From contig JAKOPZ010000167.1 in assembly GCA_029778615.1 (NCBI GenBank), forward strand, positions 1-45,762: a stretch of DNA of 45,762 nucleotides, written 5' to 3'. Made by a program: the position numbers and the translations under genes. Origin of the DNA: Chloroflexota bacterium (GTDB lineage Bacteria > Chloroflexota > Anaerolineae > UBA4142 > SHND01). The notes under the pieces are model-generated. The model was not told the DNA's origin. It did no database searches and saw only the letters and a program-made list of their open reading frames with translations. This document shows, in pieces, positions 8,305-42,122 of the stretch; position 1 is the first letter of the stretch; the number at the start of each line of letters is the position of its first letter.

Positions 8305-8724
8305 ATGAGCGATACACCCATTCGCGTTCTCGTCGCCAAACCCGGACTTGATGGACATGACCGCGGCGCCAAAGTGGTCGCGCGCGCAATGCGCGACGCG
8401 GGCATGGAAGTAATTTACACCGGCATTCGCCAAACGCCCGAAATGATTGCCGAAGCCGCGCTGCAAGAAGATGTAGATGTTGTCGGACTTTCGATTTTGT
8501 CCGGCGCGCATCTCGAATTGTTTCCGCGCGTGACAGAGCTGTTAAAAGAAAAAGGCAAGACCGATGTGCTGCTCGTCGCGGGCGGCATCATTCCGGACGA
8601 AGATATTCCGCAATTGAACGCGATGGGTTTCACCGGCGTCTTTGGTCCGGGAACGAACACGAACGACTTGGTGAAATTTGTGCAAGCAGAAATGGCGAAA
8701 CGACGAATGCACAATGCACAATAA
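8305..8724 (+). CDS. Methylmalonyl-CoA mutase small (B12-binding) subunit
   Basis: A 139-aa stand-alone cobalamin-binding domain. It carries the signature DGHDRG (residues 16-21, pattern DxHxxG), where His18 is the lower axial cobalt ligand, then LSILSG and the VAGGIIP glycine pair that hold the nucleotide tail. In the two-gene form of methylmalonyl-CoA mutase this subunit joins a large catalytic subunit to interconvert methylmalonyl-CoA and succinyl-CoA. The large subunit is not in the window. The G-protein chaperone MeaB follows 100 bases downstream, which supports the mutase role over other B12 enzymes. The last residues (RRMHNAQ) run into a low-complexity repeat. Confidence 0.9.
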
Positions 8725-8820
8725 ACAAAGAACAATGCACAATAAACAATGCACAATGCAGAATGGACAATGCCCTAATCACCTAATCACCCAATCACCC
8801 AATCTCTAATCTCCAGTCTC
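8708..8820. repeat. Low-complexity word repeats between mutase subunit and meaB
   Basis: Two sets of words follow each other: about five variants of ACAATGCACAATAAA, starting inside the last codons of the mutase subunit gene, then repeats of CTAATCACC, CAATCACCC and CTAATCTCC up to the meaB start. Here the words are direct rather than inverted. No protein or RNA gene is recognisable. Confidence 0.6.
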
Positions 8821-17822: not shown

Positions 17823-17872
17823 GACCATTCGGGTTTCTTGCGATGAACTGCATCGCCAAAACCCGAATGGTC
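17823..17872. repeat. Two-step hairpin after the basic-tail gene
   Basis: Outer arms GACCATTCGGGTTT (17823-17836) and AAACCCGAATGGTC (17859-17872) are perfect complements. An inner stem GCGATG (17840-17845) and CATCGC (17851-17856) closes on AACTG. The inner piece closely resembles the first hairpin of the array at 25274-25290 (GCGATGC-ACT-GCATCGC). It can serve as terminator for the gene ending at 17813, although no T-run follows. Confidence 0.65.
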
Positions 17873-22053: not shown

Positions 22054-22890
22054 ATGCGACTGGGAAATATCGAACTGTTTGTCGTCAGCGACGGCTTTGT
22101 GCGCATGGACGGCGGCGGCATGTTTGGCGTGGTGCCGCGCGTGCTGTGGGAAAAATTGCTCCAGCCCGATGAATTCAATCGCGTCAAGACGGCGTTGAAT
22201 TGTCTGGTGATTGTCTCGCGCGAAAAAACAATTTTGGTGGACGCGGGGCTCGGCACAAAACTAACGACCAAACAAGAACAGAATTTTGCGCGCAAGGGCG
22301 GTTCCAAACTCTTGACCAATATGGCGCGCATTGGTTTTTTGCCCGCCGACATTGACCTCGTTATCAATACGCATTTACACGCCGACCACGCGGGCGGCAA
22401 TACGCGCCGCGATGGCACCGAAGTTATTCCCACCTTTCCCAATGCGGAATATTGGATTCAACGGCAAGAATTTCTTGACGCCTCCTTTCCCAACGAGCGC
22501 ACCAAAGCCACATACTTTCCCGACAATTTCATTCCCCTCGAGCGCGTCTGTCTGCTCAACGGCGATACACAAATCACCGAAGAAGTCCGCACCATCGTAA
22601 CGCCCGGGCACACGCGCGCGCATCAAGCCGTCATCATCGAATCGAAAGGCGAAAAGGCAATTTTTCTCGGCGATGTGGCAGGGCGCACTGTGTATCTGGA
22701 ACGACTCGCGTGGGTCCCCTCGTACGACCTCGAACCGATGGTGAGCATCGAAACGAAACGCCGCATTCGCGAGTGGGCGTACGAAGAAAATATTCTCCTC
22801 ATCTTTCAACACGACGCGGTGATGACGCTCGGACGTTTACGCAAAGACGGGAACGATTTCAAAGTGGAACGCGTCGCGACCGATTTATAA
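22054..22890 (+). CDS. MBL-fold metallo-hydrolase
   Basis: A 278-aa metallo-beta-lactamase-fold protein. The metal site THLHADHAGG (HxHxDH) is followed by TPGHTRAHQ, a later Asp in FLGDVAG and a C-terminal His in IFQHDAVM, giving a complete binuclear zinc site. The domain begins RLGNIELFVVSDGFVRMDGGGMFG, similar to quorum-quenching lactonase-like and related hydrolases (AHL-lactonase/YtnP group). The substrate cannot be fixed from sequence. ATG 22054 is preferred over an in-frame start at 22024, which lies inside the hairpin. Its stop codon overlaps the stop codon of the converging gene on the other strand (TTATAA). Confidence 0.85.
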   Translation: MRLGNIELFVVSDGFVRMDGGGMFGVVPRVLWEKLLQPDEFNRVKTALNCLVIVSREKTILVDAGLGTKLTTKQEQNFARKGGSKLLTNMARIGFLPADIDLVINTHLHADHAGGNTRRDGTEVIPTFPNAEYWIQRQEFLDASFPNERTKATYFPDNFIPLERVCLLNGDTQITEEVRTIVTPGHTRAHQAVIIESKGEKAIFLGDVAGRTVYLERLAWVPSYDLEPMVSIETKRRIREWAYEENILLIFQHDAVMTLGRLRKDGNDFKVERVATDL

Positions 22891-25212
22891 CAACTGCATC
22901 TGTTCCTGCCCCTCCAACCACGGCGGGTCCAGACCCCACGTCAATTGAAATTCGGGGCGCGTCGCAAAATCTTCGCGCTGCAACATTTCCATCAACGGGA
23001 CGCGCAAAAATTCCCAGCCCGCGCGCGTCAACTCTTGGACGCGGCGCGGGTCGCGGCGCAATCGTTCGCGCGTCAATTCCACTTGCGTTTCGGGAATGAC
23101 GACGAGTCCGTGCAGCGGCGTCGCGCGCGCGGCAAGCAATTCCGCAAACTCTGCGCGCGGGCGGAACACAAACGCGTACGCGTCTTCGACAATCCTTTCT
23201 TGTTGGAGCGAACCGCGCGCCGACGCGGGAATAATTTTTTCCGCGCGCCAAATTAAATCAAAGCGTTCCGCGTTTTCCTTGACCACATAGCCAAGATGTT
23301 CACCCAACGCGTGCGCGAGCGCGCGCGCCCGCGTCAAGTCCGTCTCGACGTCCGGCGCGCGCCATTCCCAAAATCCGTCCGCGCAATTCGCGTGCGCCCG
23401 CGCGCAGATTTCCACCAGTTCAATTTCCGGCGTCAGCAGTCCGCCAAAGCGTTTCGCCAATTCATCTTCCAATTCATTCGCCGCAACGCGTCTGCGCGTT
23501 TGCAGCAGCGCGCGGGTCACGTTCTCTATCTGCACGGCAAACTCGCTTTGCTCTTCTTTACGCGCGATGCGCGCGGCACGACGCAGCCACACCACGCGCG
23601 TTTTGTCTTCCCAATGGTCAATCTCTTGCAGATACCCTTCTTTGAAACCCTCTTCCATGCGATGCCGCAAAAATTGAAAAGCGTTATCGCCTTGCCGATA
23701 TTTTGCCGCGAGCAATTGCGCCAAAACATTTTCGCGCGCGAGCTTGTCGAGTGCGGCGTGATGGAGCCACGAATACGCGAGCGGCTCACCGCGCGCGTCG
23801 AGAATGGCGCGCGCGGCATCGAGTGCCGTCGCGCGCACGTTCGACGCCAAAGTATTTCCGGACACCGTCTCAACCGACGCGTCCGCGCGCTGCCACACCA
23901 CTTGATAATCGCCGCGCAGTGCGCCCCATTCGGTCGCGTCGCGCGCACCGCGTTCGGGGCGAAATGCAAAATCTTCAAGCGCAAATTGCGGCGCTGCCGC
24001 AAGCATCAACGCCTCTATCATCGCGTGGCTCCCCGAAGGAAACGCGACGACAAGACGCGCCTCCGCGCGCGCAAGCTTTGCTGTATCCGCGAGCGCGTTC
24101 GTCAGCGCTTTGCCGTACCAGCCCCAACGTTGACTCTCCGGTTCCAAAAATACTTGGAGCGGGACAGCCGCGTTTTTTCCCAAAAGCCAGCGTGTCCACA
24201 AAAAAGACAATTCCCAAAAAATCGGGTCGAGGCGCGCAGGGCTCGATAGGATGAATGCCGCGCGCGCGTCTGCCGCGTTTTCTGCCAGATAACGCGCGCC
24301 GCCTTGACCGATAAACGCGGCGGGCGTGCGGCTCTCCAAGACCTGCGCGGGACTGGACGCGAGCCGCAGCGCGGGTGCGCGTTCGCCCAGCCCACGCGCC
24401 GCGTTTTCCAACGCGCGCCAAATATTGCATTCCACAAACTCGGACGGAATCTCGCGCGTGGGCAGCGCGTCGGGCGACGCGTAAAGCATTGTGCCGACGT
24501 CGAGCGCGTGGAGAAGGAGCGCGGCAAGAACATTCCGCGCGGCATCATCGCGAAACTCGGCGTCGAGTTTCTGCGAAATCGCGGCGAGCGCGTTGAGGTT
24601 GCGCGGCGAGTACAAATCGAGCAAACGCTTAAGCGTCGGTGTATTTGCCGGGTCATCGGCAAGCAGACGCTGCACCAGCAGATGATACGGCAGTCCGCGC
24701 GGCGCGGCATCCTGTGCGCGCTGACGGTCGGTTTCGGTCGCGTCGTCGCGGCATGTCCCGCACTGCGCGCACGTGTAAATTTTTTCGGCAAGCAGATTTT
24801 TGCCGTCACTGCGCCGCCAGACAAAATAGTCCGCGCTCACCGCGCCGCCGCAGCGCGCACAGAGCGTCATATACATTTTTTCCAACGCGGCGCGGAGAGT
24901 TTCCCCCTCTTTGCGCGTGTCGCCCAAGCGCGCCAGCGCCGCGCCGATTTCGCGCGCGTTGGGCAGAGTCGCTTGCACGCGCGTTGCCCATGCCACGAGC
25001 GGGTTGGAATCTACGGCGAGAATCCGCCGCCCGCGCAGTACCGCCGCGCGCACCACCGCGTCCGACGCGACAAACGGGTCAAGAATCAAATCGTTCGGCT
25101 GCGTGAACGTTTCGATAAAATGCGCGGCGACGTTTTCTGCCAGCGGCTGGCGGTGCGCCCGCAACAAATAAAATCGCGCATCGCGCGGCGGCACCAAAGC
25201 GCGTCCGTTCAT
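22885..25212 (-). CDS. Degenerate DNA-methylase-like protein with zinc ribbon
   Basis: A 775-aa protein related to the large zinc-ribbon adenine-specific DNA methylases (COG1743-like). The SAM-binding motif region LILDPFVASDAVVRAAVLRG followed by RRILAVDSNPLVAW is near residues 43-75. A zinc ribbon has Cys118/Cys121 and Cys148/Cys151. The position of catalytic motif IV, normally DPPY before a WELS-like helix, reads SSPARLDPIFWELSFLWTRW from residue 323, so the Asp and Tyr are missing. The C-terminal 250 residues are Arg/Ala-rich with no clear fold. It may bind DNA without methylating it or may be a family with another reaction. It stands alone, with no restriction nuclease beside it, and starts at ATG 25212. 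Confidence 0.65.
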   Translation of the reverse strand: MNGRALVPPRDARFYLLRAHRQPLAENVAAHFIETFTQPNDLILDPFVASDAVVRAAVLRGRRILAVDSNPLVAWATRVQATLPNAREIGAALARLGDTRKEGETLRAALEKMYMTLCARCGGAVSADYFVWRRSDGKNLLAEKIYTCAQCGTCRDDATETDRQRAQDAAPRGLPYHLLVQRLLADDPANTPTLKRLLDLYSPRNLNALAAISQKLDAEFRDDAARNVLAALLLHALDVGTMLYASPDALPTREIPSEFVECNIWRALENAARGLGERAPALRLASSPAQVLESRTPAAFIGQGGARYLAENAADARAAFILSSPARLDPIFWELSFLWTRWLLGKNAAVPLQVFLEPESQRWGWYGKALTNALADTAKLARAEARLVVAFPSGSHAMIEALMLAAAPQFALEDFAFRPERGARDATEWGALRGDYQVVWQRADASVETVSGNTLASNVRATALDAARAILDARGEPLAYSWLHHAALDKLARENVLAQLLAAKYRQGDNAFQFLRHRMEEGFKEGYLQEIDHWEDKTRVVWLRRAARIARKEEQSEFAVQIENVTRALLQTRRRVAANELEDELAKRFGGLLTPEIELVEICARAHANCADGFWEWRAPDVETDLTRARALAHALGEHLGYVVKENAERFDLIWRAEKIIPASARGSLQQERIVEDAYAFVFRPRAEFAELLAARATPLHGLVVIPETQVELTRERLRRDPRRVQELTRAGWEFLRVPLMEMLQREDFATRPEFQLTWGLDPPWLEGQEQMQLL

Positions 25213-25270
25213 GCAAAAAAGTATAGCACAGGGATTTTGTTTTGCCGTTTAATGGGGCGATTCAAGATCG

Positions 25271-25383
25271 CGTGCGATGCACTGCATCGCGACGCACAGC
25301 CAAGTGAACCTGCGTTCACCAAGCGCTGCAGACCGCTTTCGCCATACGTTGGGCGAACAGTGTTCGCAACGAATTGCGATTCG
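25271..25383. repeat. Array of five small hairpins
   Basis: Five different short inverted repeats follow each other within 113 bases: GCGATGC-ACT-GCATCGC (25274-25290, extended by CGT/ACG with one bulge), GTGAAC-CTGC-GTTCAC (25304-25319), AAGCG...CGCTT (25321-25338), GCGAACA-G-TGTTCGC (25353-25367) and CGAAT-TGCG-ATTCG (25370-25383). They lie in the 255-base gap between two divergent genes. The first is nearly the same as the inner stem at 17840-17856. No protein frame explains it. Confidence 0.65.
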
Positions 25384-25444
25384 CTTGGCAGATGCACTCC
25401 CAAACTGAACTGCGCCCCTGCGCCACCAATGCGCGTAAGCTTTG

Positions 25445-25467: not shown

Positions 25468-26589
25468 ATGAATACTTTTGTGCAAAATCGAGCAGAAAAA
25501 ATGGTAATGAGTGGACGACCTGAAAAAATGTTTGATGCGGACTTTCGTTCCGCGCTGAAATATCTCGCAGGGGAGAAAGTCTCGCTTGCGCCGTCGCTGT
25601 TGTTTGCGTTTTCCGATGTTACGCGCGGCGAATTGCAAGAATTTGCCGAGGTGTGGCAAACGCTGCCCACCGACAGGCGCACGCGCATTTCGCAGGCGAT
25701 GATGGAACTTGCCGAAGAACGCATCGAAGCCGACTTTACGCGCATCTTTCGCTATTTGCTGGATGATGAAGACGCACCGGTGCGCGTGAACGCCATCAAT
25801 GGTTTGTGGGAAGACGAAGACCCCGCGCTGATTCGTCAATTTATCGGCGCGCTGCGGAGTGACCCCGACGCGCAGGTGCGCGCGGCGGCGGCGGAAGGTT
25901 TGGGACGCTTTCTTTTACTGTCCGAAACGAAACGCATTCCCGCGAGCGATGGCGACGAAATTCAAACTGCCTTGCTCGCCGTGATTCGCAATGGCGGCGA
26001 AGACCGTTTGGTGCGCCGCCGCGCGATGGAAGCGATTGCATATGTGGGCGATGAAACCGTGCGCAACATTGTCGCCGCCGCGTATGCGGACGATGATGCC
26101 AAGATGCGCGCGAGCGCGATTTTTGCGATGGGACGCAGCGCCGACCCGTACTGGAAACGCACCGTCGCGCAAGAATTGTATTCGCCCGACCCGCAAATTC
26201 GTTTTGAAGCGGCGCGCGCGGTGGGCGAATTGGAATTCAAAGCGGCAGTCCCGCGCTTGATTGAGCTTGCCGATGACCCGGACCGCGAAGTTTCGAGCGC
26301 AGCCATTACGTCGCTCGGCTTGATTGGCGGGAAACTGGCGCGGCAAGCGCTGACCACTATTATTGATGGCGAAGATGAAGTGGCGCGCGAAATCGCGCAG
26401 GACGCGTTGGATGAATTGGAATTTGCGAGCGGTTCAAACATGCTGCTGGTGGACATTGGTCTCGAAAGCGAAGAGGAAGCGCTGCTCGCCGAAGAGTTGG
26501 AAGATTTGGACGACGAATTTCAACAAGAAGATGACGAGCCGCGCGATTTATTGGACGATGGCGGCTTGAGTCCGCGCCGCCGCCGCTAA
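25468..26589 (+). CDS. HEAT-repeat protein with acidic C-terminus
   Basis: A 373-aa protein made largely of HEAT/PBS-lyase-type repeats between about residues 85 and 310. Recognisable units include DEDAPVRVNAINGLWE, DPDAQVRAAAAEGLGRF, DRLVRRRAMEAIAYVGDETV, DPQIRFEAARAVGELEF and DREVSSAAITSLGLIGG. The last 50 residues are very acidic (EEEALLAEELEDLDDEFQQE) and end in SPRRRR. Such proteins are protein-binding scaffolds; some relatives assist phycobilin attachment, but nothing here points to that. No signal peptide is present, so it is cytosolic. The terminator at 26612-26675 follows. Confidence 0.85.
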   Translation: MNTFVQNRAEKMVMSGRPEKMFDADFRSALKYLAGEKVSLAPSLLFAFSDVTRGELQEFAEVWQTLPTDRRTRISQAMMELAEERIEADFTRIFRYLLDDEDAPVRVNAINGLWEDEDPALIRQFIGALRSDPDAQVRAAAAEGLGRFLLLSETKRIPASDGDEIQTALLAVIRNGGEDRLVRRRAMEAIAYVGDETVRNIVAAAYADDDAKMRASAIFAMGRSADPYWKRTVAQELYSPDPQIRFEAARAVGELEFKAAVPRLIELADDPDREVSSAAITSLGLIGGKLARQALTTIIDGEDEVAREIAQDALDELEFASGSNMLLVDIGLESEEEALLAEELEDLDDEFQQEDDEPRDLLDDGGLSPRRRR

Positions 26590-34916: not shown

Positions 34917-34949
34917 TTAGAGATTAGAGACTAGAGATTAGAGATTGGG
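34917..34949. repeat. Word repeat between tal and gnd
   Basis: Four variants of the word TTAGAGA/CTAGAGATTAGAGATT stand in direct order between transaldolase and gnd. The same word recurs at 42046-42122, and its complement at 8808-8820. No gene is present. Confidence 0.55.
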
Positions 34950-34963
34950 TCATTGTGCCGTGT

Positions 34964-36112
34964 TCATCGCGCTTTGGTCATTTCATTCCGTTTCTTTTCA
35001 ATCCCCGCGAGCAGTTGATTAAACGCTTCATCAAATTTTACGACGCCTTCGTCTAACACTTGCTGAGTCACTTTATCGAGTGAGAATCCTGCCGCTTCAA
35101 AACGTTTCACGATGGCGTGCGCGGCAGAAAAATCTGCGTCAACGGTGCGCGCGACGATGCCGTGTTCCGCGAAGGCTTTGATGGTTTCGAGCGGCAACGT
35201 GTTGATGGTATGCGGACCAATCAACGTTTCGACATACATCACATCGCGGTACGAGGGATTTTTTGTCGAAGTGGATGCCCACAACGGGCGCTGTACGCGC
35301 GCGTTCATTGCTTGCAAGGCGAGCCAGCGTTCGCTGGAAAAAATTTCGTTGAATTTTTCGTACGCAATCTGCGCGTTGGCGATGGCGAGCTTGCCCTGCA
35401 AATCTTTTAGCTCTTCATAGCGTTGGGGATTCGTTTCCGTTTTTGCGGCGTCGCCCAAGAGTTTGTCCGCGAGCGTATCAATGCGGCTGACAAAAAAACT
35501 GGCGACAGATGCAATGCGGTCAACGGGCTTGCCTTCCGCCGCGCGTTTTTCCAGCGCGTGAAGGTACGCCCACGCGACCTCTTCGTACGCTTGCACCGCA
35601 AACAACAACGTGATATTGATGTTGAGTCCGTCGTACAACGACTGCTCAATCGCGGGGACGCCTTCTTTGGTTCCCGGAATTTTCACCATCAAGTTCGGAC
35701 GGTTCACCGTCTCCCACAAACGTTTCGCTTCGGCAATGGTGCCTTGCGTGTCATGCGCGAGACGCGGCGAAACTTCAATGCTGACAAAACCATCACCGCC
35801 GTTCGATTCGTCGTACACCGAACGGAATACATCGCACGCCGCGCGCACATCATCCGTCGCGAGTTTTTCATAAATCGCATCGGTGGACGCGCCCTGCGCG
35901 TCGAGCGCTTGAATGTCCGCGTCGTAATCGCGGCTGCCAACAATCGCTTTTTGAAAAATACTCGGGTTCGATGTCTCGCCGCGCAGCGCCATCGTTTCGA
36001 TTAAACGTTTCAATTCGCCCGATTCGATTTGTTTGCGTTGAATGCTGTCGAGCCAGACCGATTGACCTTGCTCGAGTAGTGCGTAGAGTGGATTGTTGCC
36101 GTTTGTAGACAT
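34964..36112 (-). CDS. tal: Transaldolase
   Basis: A 382-aa enzyme of the non-oxidative pentose phosphate pathway that moves a three-carbon unit between sedoheptulose 7-phosphate and glyceraldehyde 3-phosphate. The Schiff-base lysine lies in NLMVKIPGTKEG. The N-terminal GETSNPSIFQKAI, SIEVSPRLAHDTQGTIAEA, the strand NITLLFAVQAYEEVAWAYL, and VASFFVSRID are typical of the long transaldolase type found in actinobacteria and cyanobacteria. ATG 36112 has GGAGG upstream. It is followed on the same strand by gnd, and the sugar kinase precedes it. Confidence 0.95.
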   Translation of the reverse strand: MSTNGNNPLYALLEQGQSVWLDSIQRKQIESGELKRLIETMALRGETSNPSIFQKAIVGSRDYDADIQALDAQGASTDAIYEKLATDDVRAACDVFRSVYDESNGGDGFVSIEVSPRLAHDTQGTIAEAKRLWETVNRPNLMVKIPGTKEGVPAIEQSLYDGLNINITLLFAVQAYEEVAWAYLHALEKRAAEGKPVDRIASVASFFVSRIDTLADKLLGDAAKTETNPQRYEELKDLQGKLAIANAQIAYEKFNEIFSSERWLALQAMNARVQRPLWASTSTKNPSYRDVMYVETLIGPHTINTLPLETIKAFAEHGIVARTVDADFSAAHAIVKRFEAAGFSLDKVTQQVLDEGVVKFDEAFNQLLAGIEKKRNEMTKAR

Positions 36113-42045: not shown

Positions 42046-42122
42046 TTGGAGATTGGTGATTAGAGATTAGAGATTAGAGACTAGAGATTGGAAATTAAGG
42101 ATTCGTCACGAGTCTCTAATCT
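42046..42122. repeat. Word-type repeat upstream of the ABC ATPase gene
   Basis: The word GATTAGAGATTAGAGACT is repeated in direct order (42056-42090) and the last unit AGATTAGAGACT (42071-42082) is a perfect complement of AGTCTCTAATCT (42111-42122). The hairpin occupies the gap between the SUMF1-like gene and the ATPase gene. Confidence 0.6.

Follow-up and report, generated by a model that had tools for sequence, protein, structure and literature searches.

Hairpins between two divergent genes

A stretch of 45,762 nucleotides from a Chloroflexota bacterium (contig JAKOPZ010000167.1; the whole stretch is called the window here) contains a block of small hairpins in the gap between two divergent genes. 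Judged from its sequence, this block represents a copy of an element that is dispersed, quasi-dyad, approximately 105 bp long, and built of four hairpins. A sequence-only reading of the window had described five consecutive hairpins of different sequence at 25271 to 25383 in a gap between divergent genes. Inspection of the sequence confirmed all five at those positions and added a sixth at 25257 to 25271, immediately upstream of them; the open reading frames on either side (22885 to 25212, minus; 25468 to 26589, plus) are divergent, as described. The features of the locus are as follows.

22885–25212, minus strand: gene for a DNA-methylase-like protein, flanking, used to locate the corresponding sites in congeners
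25231–25256, plus strand: decayed left terminal inverted repeat (TIR) of an ISKra4-type miniature inverted-repeat transposable element (MITE), GGG...GTTTAAT-GGGGCGA, assigned by eye against the left TIRs of copies L002 and L003 (GGGTGCAATTCACATTGGGGCAAGTTTAATCGGGCGA); absent in two congeners
25257–25271, plus strand: outer (doubled) end hairpin GCGAT-TCAAG-ATCGC, conserved in copies L002, L003 and L005–L008
25274–25290, plus strand: end hairpin GCGATGC-ACT-GCATCGC with a 7-bp stem, the first of the five described earlier; aligned by the covariance model as a terminal hairpin
25291–25303, plus strand: linker GACGCACAGCCAA, counterpart of the conserved linker GGCAACnnnnnGCnAA by alignment and model match
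25304–25319, plus strand: inner hairpin GTGAAC-CTGC-GTTCAC, loop family CTNY; the stem covaries elsewhere, e.g., GTCAAC..GTTGAC
25321–25338, plus strand: inner hairpin AAGCG-CTGCAGAC-CGCTT, counterpart of the ATCGGC..GCCGAT hairpin of other copies
25339–25351, plus strand: second linker TCGCCATACGTTG, by alignment and model match
25353–25367, plus strand: end hairpin GCGAAC-AGT-GTTCGC, by the model; part of a two-hairpin tail common to L011, L012 and L054
25370–25383, plus strand: outer (doubled) end hairpin CGAAT-TGCG-ATTCG; the tail recurs in L011, L012 and L054
25271–25371, minus strand: full-length match to the order-wide four-hairpin covariance model R2 (1–109), 43.3 bits, E 1.6e-7 in a search of the window
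25394–25418, minus strand: right TIR of the ISKra4-type MITE (GCAGTTCAGTTTGGGAGTGC plus end)
25468–26589, plus strand: gene for a HEAT-repeat protein, flanking

The number of hairpins in the window alone is not decisive. The folding z-score of the block was about −2.7 on either strand, which is only moderately unusual, and at least three perfect hairpins of at least 6 bp within 130 bp were found in 20 of 30 simulated 45-kb windows (order-3 Markov). The block stands above chance because it recurs, with 17 BLAST matches in its own 6.0-Mb assembly (the window itself counted) and the full-length match to the covariance model.

Recurrence of the units had been proposed from the near identity of the first hairpin with an inner stem at 17840 to 17856. 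The proposal holds insofar as there is a dispersed family with more than 100 related half-units in the genome, and the likeness at 17840 to 17856 is real for one small hairpin only; that locus is a different palindrome. It spans 17825 to 17872 (GACCATTCGGGTTT..GCGATGAACTGCATCGC..AACCCGAATGGTC) and was rejected as a second copy, being essentially single copy with one exact match and one match with three mismatches in the genome. A similar hairpin-in-palindrome (AGCCCCCAAGTGTTTGG..) adjoins the methylase gene in G001 (L086). A further model match in the window, at 35285 to 35397 (E 0.078), was weak and not credible.

The same two flanking genes were located in two congeners. In G003 (L085), a short, element-free intergenic region lies between them, and in G005 (L059) a different, shorter filler with no such element. 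Since both sites lack the element, the simplest reading is that the window copy was inserted after the split from G003 and G005, with loss in the congeners conceivable; the congener sites would then represent the ancestral state. The absence of the element between the same two genes in both congeners also disfavors a multi-protein operator, one of the three roles suggested earlier for the block. As a locus, the block is ordinary: a parasitic insertion, by now decayed, in the gap between two genes.

Architecture, covariation, and spread of the four-hairpin family

The element consists, in order, of hairpin A, a GCAAC linker, hairpin B (loop CTNY), a spacer, hairpin C (loop RNAG), a linker, and hairpin D. 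It is composed of two inverted halves, each made up of an end hairpin, a GCAAC linker, and an inner hairpin whose tetraloop is conserved (CTNY or RNAG), so that the same four-hairpin tree can be folded from either DNA strand. The covariance model R2 was built from a MAFFT alignment of 29 dispersed copies from nine genomes of the same order, with the window copy excluded. Its match at 25271 to 25371 nearly coincides with the block, and the opposite strand of this interval scored 36.5 bits.

The alignment of the 29 copies provided strong evidence of covariation, with 94.1% of the cells paired in the four-hairpin structure. Cells with double changes numbered 159, compared to 54.9 ± 5.9 after shuffling, and the covariation score was 0.402, compared to 0.150 for shuffled and at most 0.070 for slid controls. 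Covariation was also found in a smaller copy set, which partly overlaps the set of 29. The inner stems are fully replaced between copies, GTGAAC..GTTCAC giving way to GTCAAC..GTTGAC, AGTCTG..CAGACT, or GCCGAC..GTCGGC, while the loops (CTNY, RNAG) and linkers (GCAAC...GCnAA) stay constant. The covariation and further copies by which the sequence-only reading could be checked were thus present, and the stems are too variable for a conserved protein frame across the block.

Covariation this strong, combined with conserved tetraloops and an intergenic position, is also what a structured noncoding RNA conserved across the order (a small RNA or a riboregulator) would show. However, G-U cells made up only 3 of approximately 344 paired cells at the twelve inner-stem pairs, and either strand of the elements folds and scores similarly with the model. 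The near absence of G-U pairs and the similar strand scores imply that the structure matters as DNA rather than RNA, and the alignment thus points to a structural constraint acting at the DNA level. Furthermore, the dozens of copies have no fixed genomic partner, two congeners lack the element at the same place, and no Rfam family covers the whole element in the window and six element loci searched. An RNA function is therefore very improbable, and the block is disfavored both as an RNA gene and as an operator array. Among the roles proposed earlier, a recombination or folding site for single-stranded DNA came close, given the covarying family and the linked HUH/Y1 single-stranded DNA transposase considered below. 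In the Rfam search, one inner hairpin of 24 nt (L163:468–491) matched CRISPR-DR28 at 36.7 bits, compared to a gathering score of 35 bits; the match is probably spurious but could lead annotation astray.

Two other explanations of the paired stems were considered. In the first, the hairpins are mutational by-products: template switching at imperfect palindromes corrects the stems, and covariation arises with neither selection nor an enzyme. The near-perfect Watson-Crick stems and the few intermediates are what palindrome correction would leave, and template switching may contribute to stem perfection. As a full account it is highly improbable, since the conserved hairpin order, the GCAAC linkers, the loops, the high copy number, and the linkage to transposase genes would be left unexplained. 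In the second, the units are recombination sites of the integron attC kind that fold in single-stranded form; the paired core GCAAC..GTTGC and the tandem arrays with regular spacing speak for it. This possibility is close to negligible: the linker box is CRGCAAC, not RYYYAAC (the RYYYAAC and GTTRRRY boxes do not fit), and the spacers of approximately 35 bp or less in the arrays read (L138, L141) are too short for cassette genes.

All copy numbers given here are lower bounds. In the genome of the window, a covariance-model search yielded at least 134 strand-hits among 150 scored candidates, and the linker half-motif occurred at 143 sites, compared to 12 for a reversed control pattern, which leaves approximately 130 half-units above background. 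Among 11 relatives searched with the same model, eight had 18 to 69 strand-hits, G007 had two, and G005 and G008 had no matches. Under strict filters, matches were found in 12 of 151 genomes of a phylum sample. Phage records contained no DNA similar to the element, and a search of the literature on hairpin repeats in Chloroflexi brought up no description of these elements. Similar repeats may also occur in cyanobacteria.

Outer repeats around the element

Judged by its flanking repeats, the window copy of the four-hairpin element is nested in a decayed MITE of an ISKra4-type insertion sequence (IS). The outer layer is read in this way because its TIR is shared with a transposase gene and because other copies have target duplications of 8 to 9 bp (CAGAGAGTT and CTTTGCAGC, 9 of 9; ATTTTTCC and TCTACCAC, 8 of 8). 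The TIR GGGTGTAGTTCAGTTTGGGGGTGACTTGT occurs at 16 sites in the genome, compared to none for a control pattern, and was present in 15 of the 20 genomes searched within the order. The same TIR closes a transposase gene at locus L105 of G010 and, judged by sequence, at L101 and L095 as well; the split L105 gene is ISKra4-like by hidden Markov model at 186.6 bits, below the curated cut-off of 205. The MITE copies contain no open reading frame, and no autonomous copy was recognized among the TIR matches in the genome. Compared to known ISKra4 family MITEs, the outer layer is alike in its TIR GGGTGTAGTTCAGTTTGGGGGTGACTTGT, its lack of an open reading frame, the 8- to 9-bp duplications of other copies, and the related transposase gene in L105. 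It differs in that its inside is a four-hairpin element and not IS-derived sequence.

These results raise the possibility that the block is no more than the interior of an ISKra4-type MITE, to which the hairpins would belong without an identity of their own. The window copy and L002, L003, L005, and L008 do have TIRs and core in common, joined at fixed junctions, and 8- to 9-bp duplications are known from MITE copies. However, the core also occurs without ISKra4-type TIRs (L010, L047, L053, L140, and L141), alone, in tandem arrays, beside tnpA genes, and inside at least three other outer repeats (TACTACTTTGTCA, GGCTGTTGCAAAGTC, and GGGTGTGCGTCA), and MITEs of other genera with the same TIR have different insides. 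This explanation is largely refuted by the TIR-less cores and is improbable.

In the host genome (G000), the four-hairpin core lies within a repeat with ends TACTACTTTGTCA..TGACAAAGTAGTA at L145–L150, L152, L156, and L157, which is probably a second MITE family. Further outer repeats surround the same core in several genera, namely the GGCTGTTGCAAAGTC and GGGTGTGCGTCA types (L154, L164–L167 and L172, L175). One class of parasite thus rides inside another, the four-hairpin unit being carried within ISKra4-type and other MITE-like repeats. The repeats held by ISKra4-type MITEs of other genera are of a GATCCCGCGGG type and a GAGCGGAACGAAGCGCAGCGGAG type (L097 and L112 in G017; L100 and L108 in G009).

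A candidate transposase for the element

Y1 transposase genes were sought with PF01797. A Y1_Tnp gene of the host genome (C94:1033–1371) sits between two elements (C94:816–919 and C94:1399–1503). In G002 (C2), a half-element abuts the tnpA start codon and full elements follow the gene, and in G014 (C199) a tnpA gene again lies between element sequences. The linked proteins carry the HUH motif, WQ, Y---QK-HH, and a short class 1 core, and match solved IS608-type TnpA; the NCBIfam REP_Tyr_transpos model gave at most 24 bits with them, compared to a cut-off of 80. By motif signature, they were assigned to TnpAY1 subclass 1.2, whose signature is Y---Q--HH according to the available part of Quentin et al. 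2018 (PMC6006769). In that part of the text, the subclass is mostly cyanobacterial and Bacteroidetes, typical IS200 terminal structures are generally lacking, and no cognate DNA element is reported.

Although R2 was built from dispersed copies only, its matches next to genes of this kind extend to other families within the class (e.g., L226–L231, L234, and L244). In a set of 60 loci, R2 matches flank 16 of 31 Y---Q--HH loci and none of 29 other Y1 loci. Hairpin density in 250-bp flanks, counted without any model, was 0.86 per 100 bp for Y---Q--HH genes, compared to 0.17 for other Y1 genes and 0.24 for unrelated genes. Subterminal hairpins were present at both ends of the gene-bearing loci L207, L215, and L255. 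Some of the genes are flanked by other hairpin families (e.g., L199, L204, L206, L216, and L217), which suggests one element family per enzyme lineage. Outside the phylum, on a plasmid of Persicobacter (Bacteroidota), hairpin ends enclose a subclass-1.2 gene, and the same ends recur without tnpA, 143 to 145 bp apart.

Collectively, these results favor, with a probability of roughly 80%, the view that the block is a REPIN-like, non-autonomous parasite that depends on subclass-1.2 TnpA to be moved in single-stranded form. The element hairpins would fold when the region becomes single-stranded during replication, on the lagging-strand template. The HUH/tyrosine transposase of the IS200 superfamily (TnpAY1 subclass 1.2, the C94 gene) would recognize them, cleave in the linkers or at the element ends, and copy or move the unit in trans. 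An ISKra4-type MITE most likely carried the window copy into the gap between the divergent genes after the G003/G005 split, and partial decay would have followed.

Several observations weigh against this interpretation. First, and this is its main weakness, no subclass-1.2 gene was detected in five genomes with elements (G051, G063, G064, G068, and G167), which may be incomplete, have lost the enzyme, or use another one. More generally, the presence of subclass-1.2 genes and of R2 elements per genome matches imperfectly in both directions, so local linkage was relied on instead. Second, 15 of the 31 Y---Q--HH genes have no R2-type match nearby at the threshold used, some having other hairpin families, and the significance of the contrast between Y1 loci (Fisher p = 2e-6) is indicative only, since the motif rule, the manual calls, and the threshold behind it were all fixed after the matches had been seen. 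Third, tandem arrays and other repeats contain many of the copies, so part of the amplification was not achieved by the TnpA enzyme; the Persicobacter copies share flanks, and segmental duplication may contribute there in part. Fourth, the window copy is divergent, at 43 bits compared to up to 97 for the best copy, and no clear target duplication is recognizable in its decayed surroundings. Finally, direct support extends to family membership, covariation, copy number, the element-free congener sites, the MITE TIR and target duplications, and physical linkage to subclass-1.2 tnpA, while recognition, cleavage, and mobilization by the enzyme are what we infer from them.

Compared to REPINs, in which doublets of repetitive extragenic palindromic (REP) sequences form hairpins and are mobilized by REP-associated tyrosine transposases (RAYTs) (PMC3116915, PMC3733652), the element shares several features. 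Both are short extragenic inverted doublets of high copy number with tandem clusters and compensatory changes, and in both, copies flank a Y1 transposase gene presumably acting in trans. However, the partner enzyme here is Y---Q--HH (class 1.2) while class 2 RAYTs are Y---NP, each half has two hairpins, giving a unit of four or more, and neither the consensus nor the conserved columns of the alignment of 29 copies show a GT[AG]G foot. Because two defining features of the REP/RAYT system, the foot and the class 2 enzyme, are lacking, the element is a variant and not a member. IS200/IS605 elements and their non-autonomous derivatives (palindrome-associated transposable elements, PATEs) are alike in the HUH/Y1 transposase, subterminal hairpins at both ends, and short tnpA-less copies. 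They differ in having one hairpin per end, compared to two or more here, and the present family has many short copies, few enzyme copies, and no tnpB seen beside the gene.

Within TnpAY1 as covered by the available text of PMC6006769, the linked proteins resemble subclass 1.2 in Y---Q--HH, HUH, W, and low copy number, and differ in their Chloroflexota host and in the multi-hairpin elements at the gene flanks. The atypical REP-like structures of class 3 and class 2.6 are similar in that non-GTAG secondary structures flank a Y1 gene and have copies elsewhere in the genome. These belong to other enzyme classes (Y----Q and YIH[QN]NP), and that text has no four-hairpin dyad.

The block thus opened the way to a family of covarying elements and, for a transposase subclass so far an orphan, to a candidate substrate. 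In the available part of the 2018 description (PMC6006769), the subclass had no DNA partner, which is proposed here, and was not reported from this phylum. The element would be a compact substrate with an unusual recognition problem, in which hairpin layout and loops would be read and the stem sequence is free. A broader proposal, on which we are evenly divided, is that subclass 1.2 is the working single-stranded DNA transposase of widespread multi-hairpin elements (in Chloroflexota and, by Persicobacter, in Bacteroidota). In this proposal, recognition would depend on the stem-loop layout, the loop, and the linker and not on the sequence of the stems, which would be left free to drift by compensatory change. 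The element family also accounts for much hairpin-rich intergenic DNA in these genomes that is otherwise unexplained.

A second four-hairpin family, AT-rich (approximately 40% GC), adjoins a diverged subclass-1.2 tnpA in the host genome and a congener (L200 and L201; G000:C192 and G003:C340). Elsewhere in the window, short degenerate tandem repeats were observed at 8706 to 8773, 34917 to 34948, and 42046 to 42105, of a AATGCACAATAAAC type and a TTAGAGATTAGAGAC type, the latter at two places.
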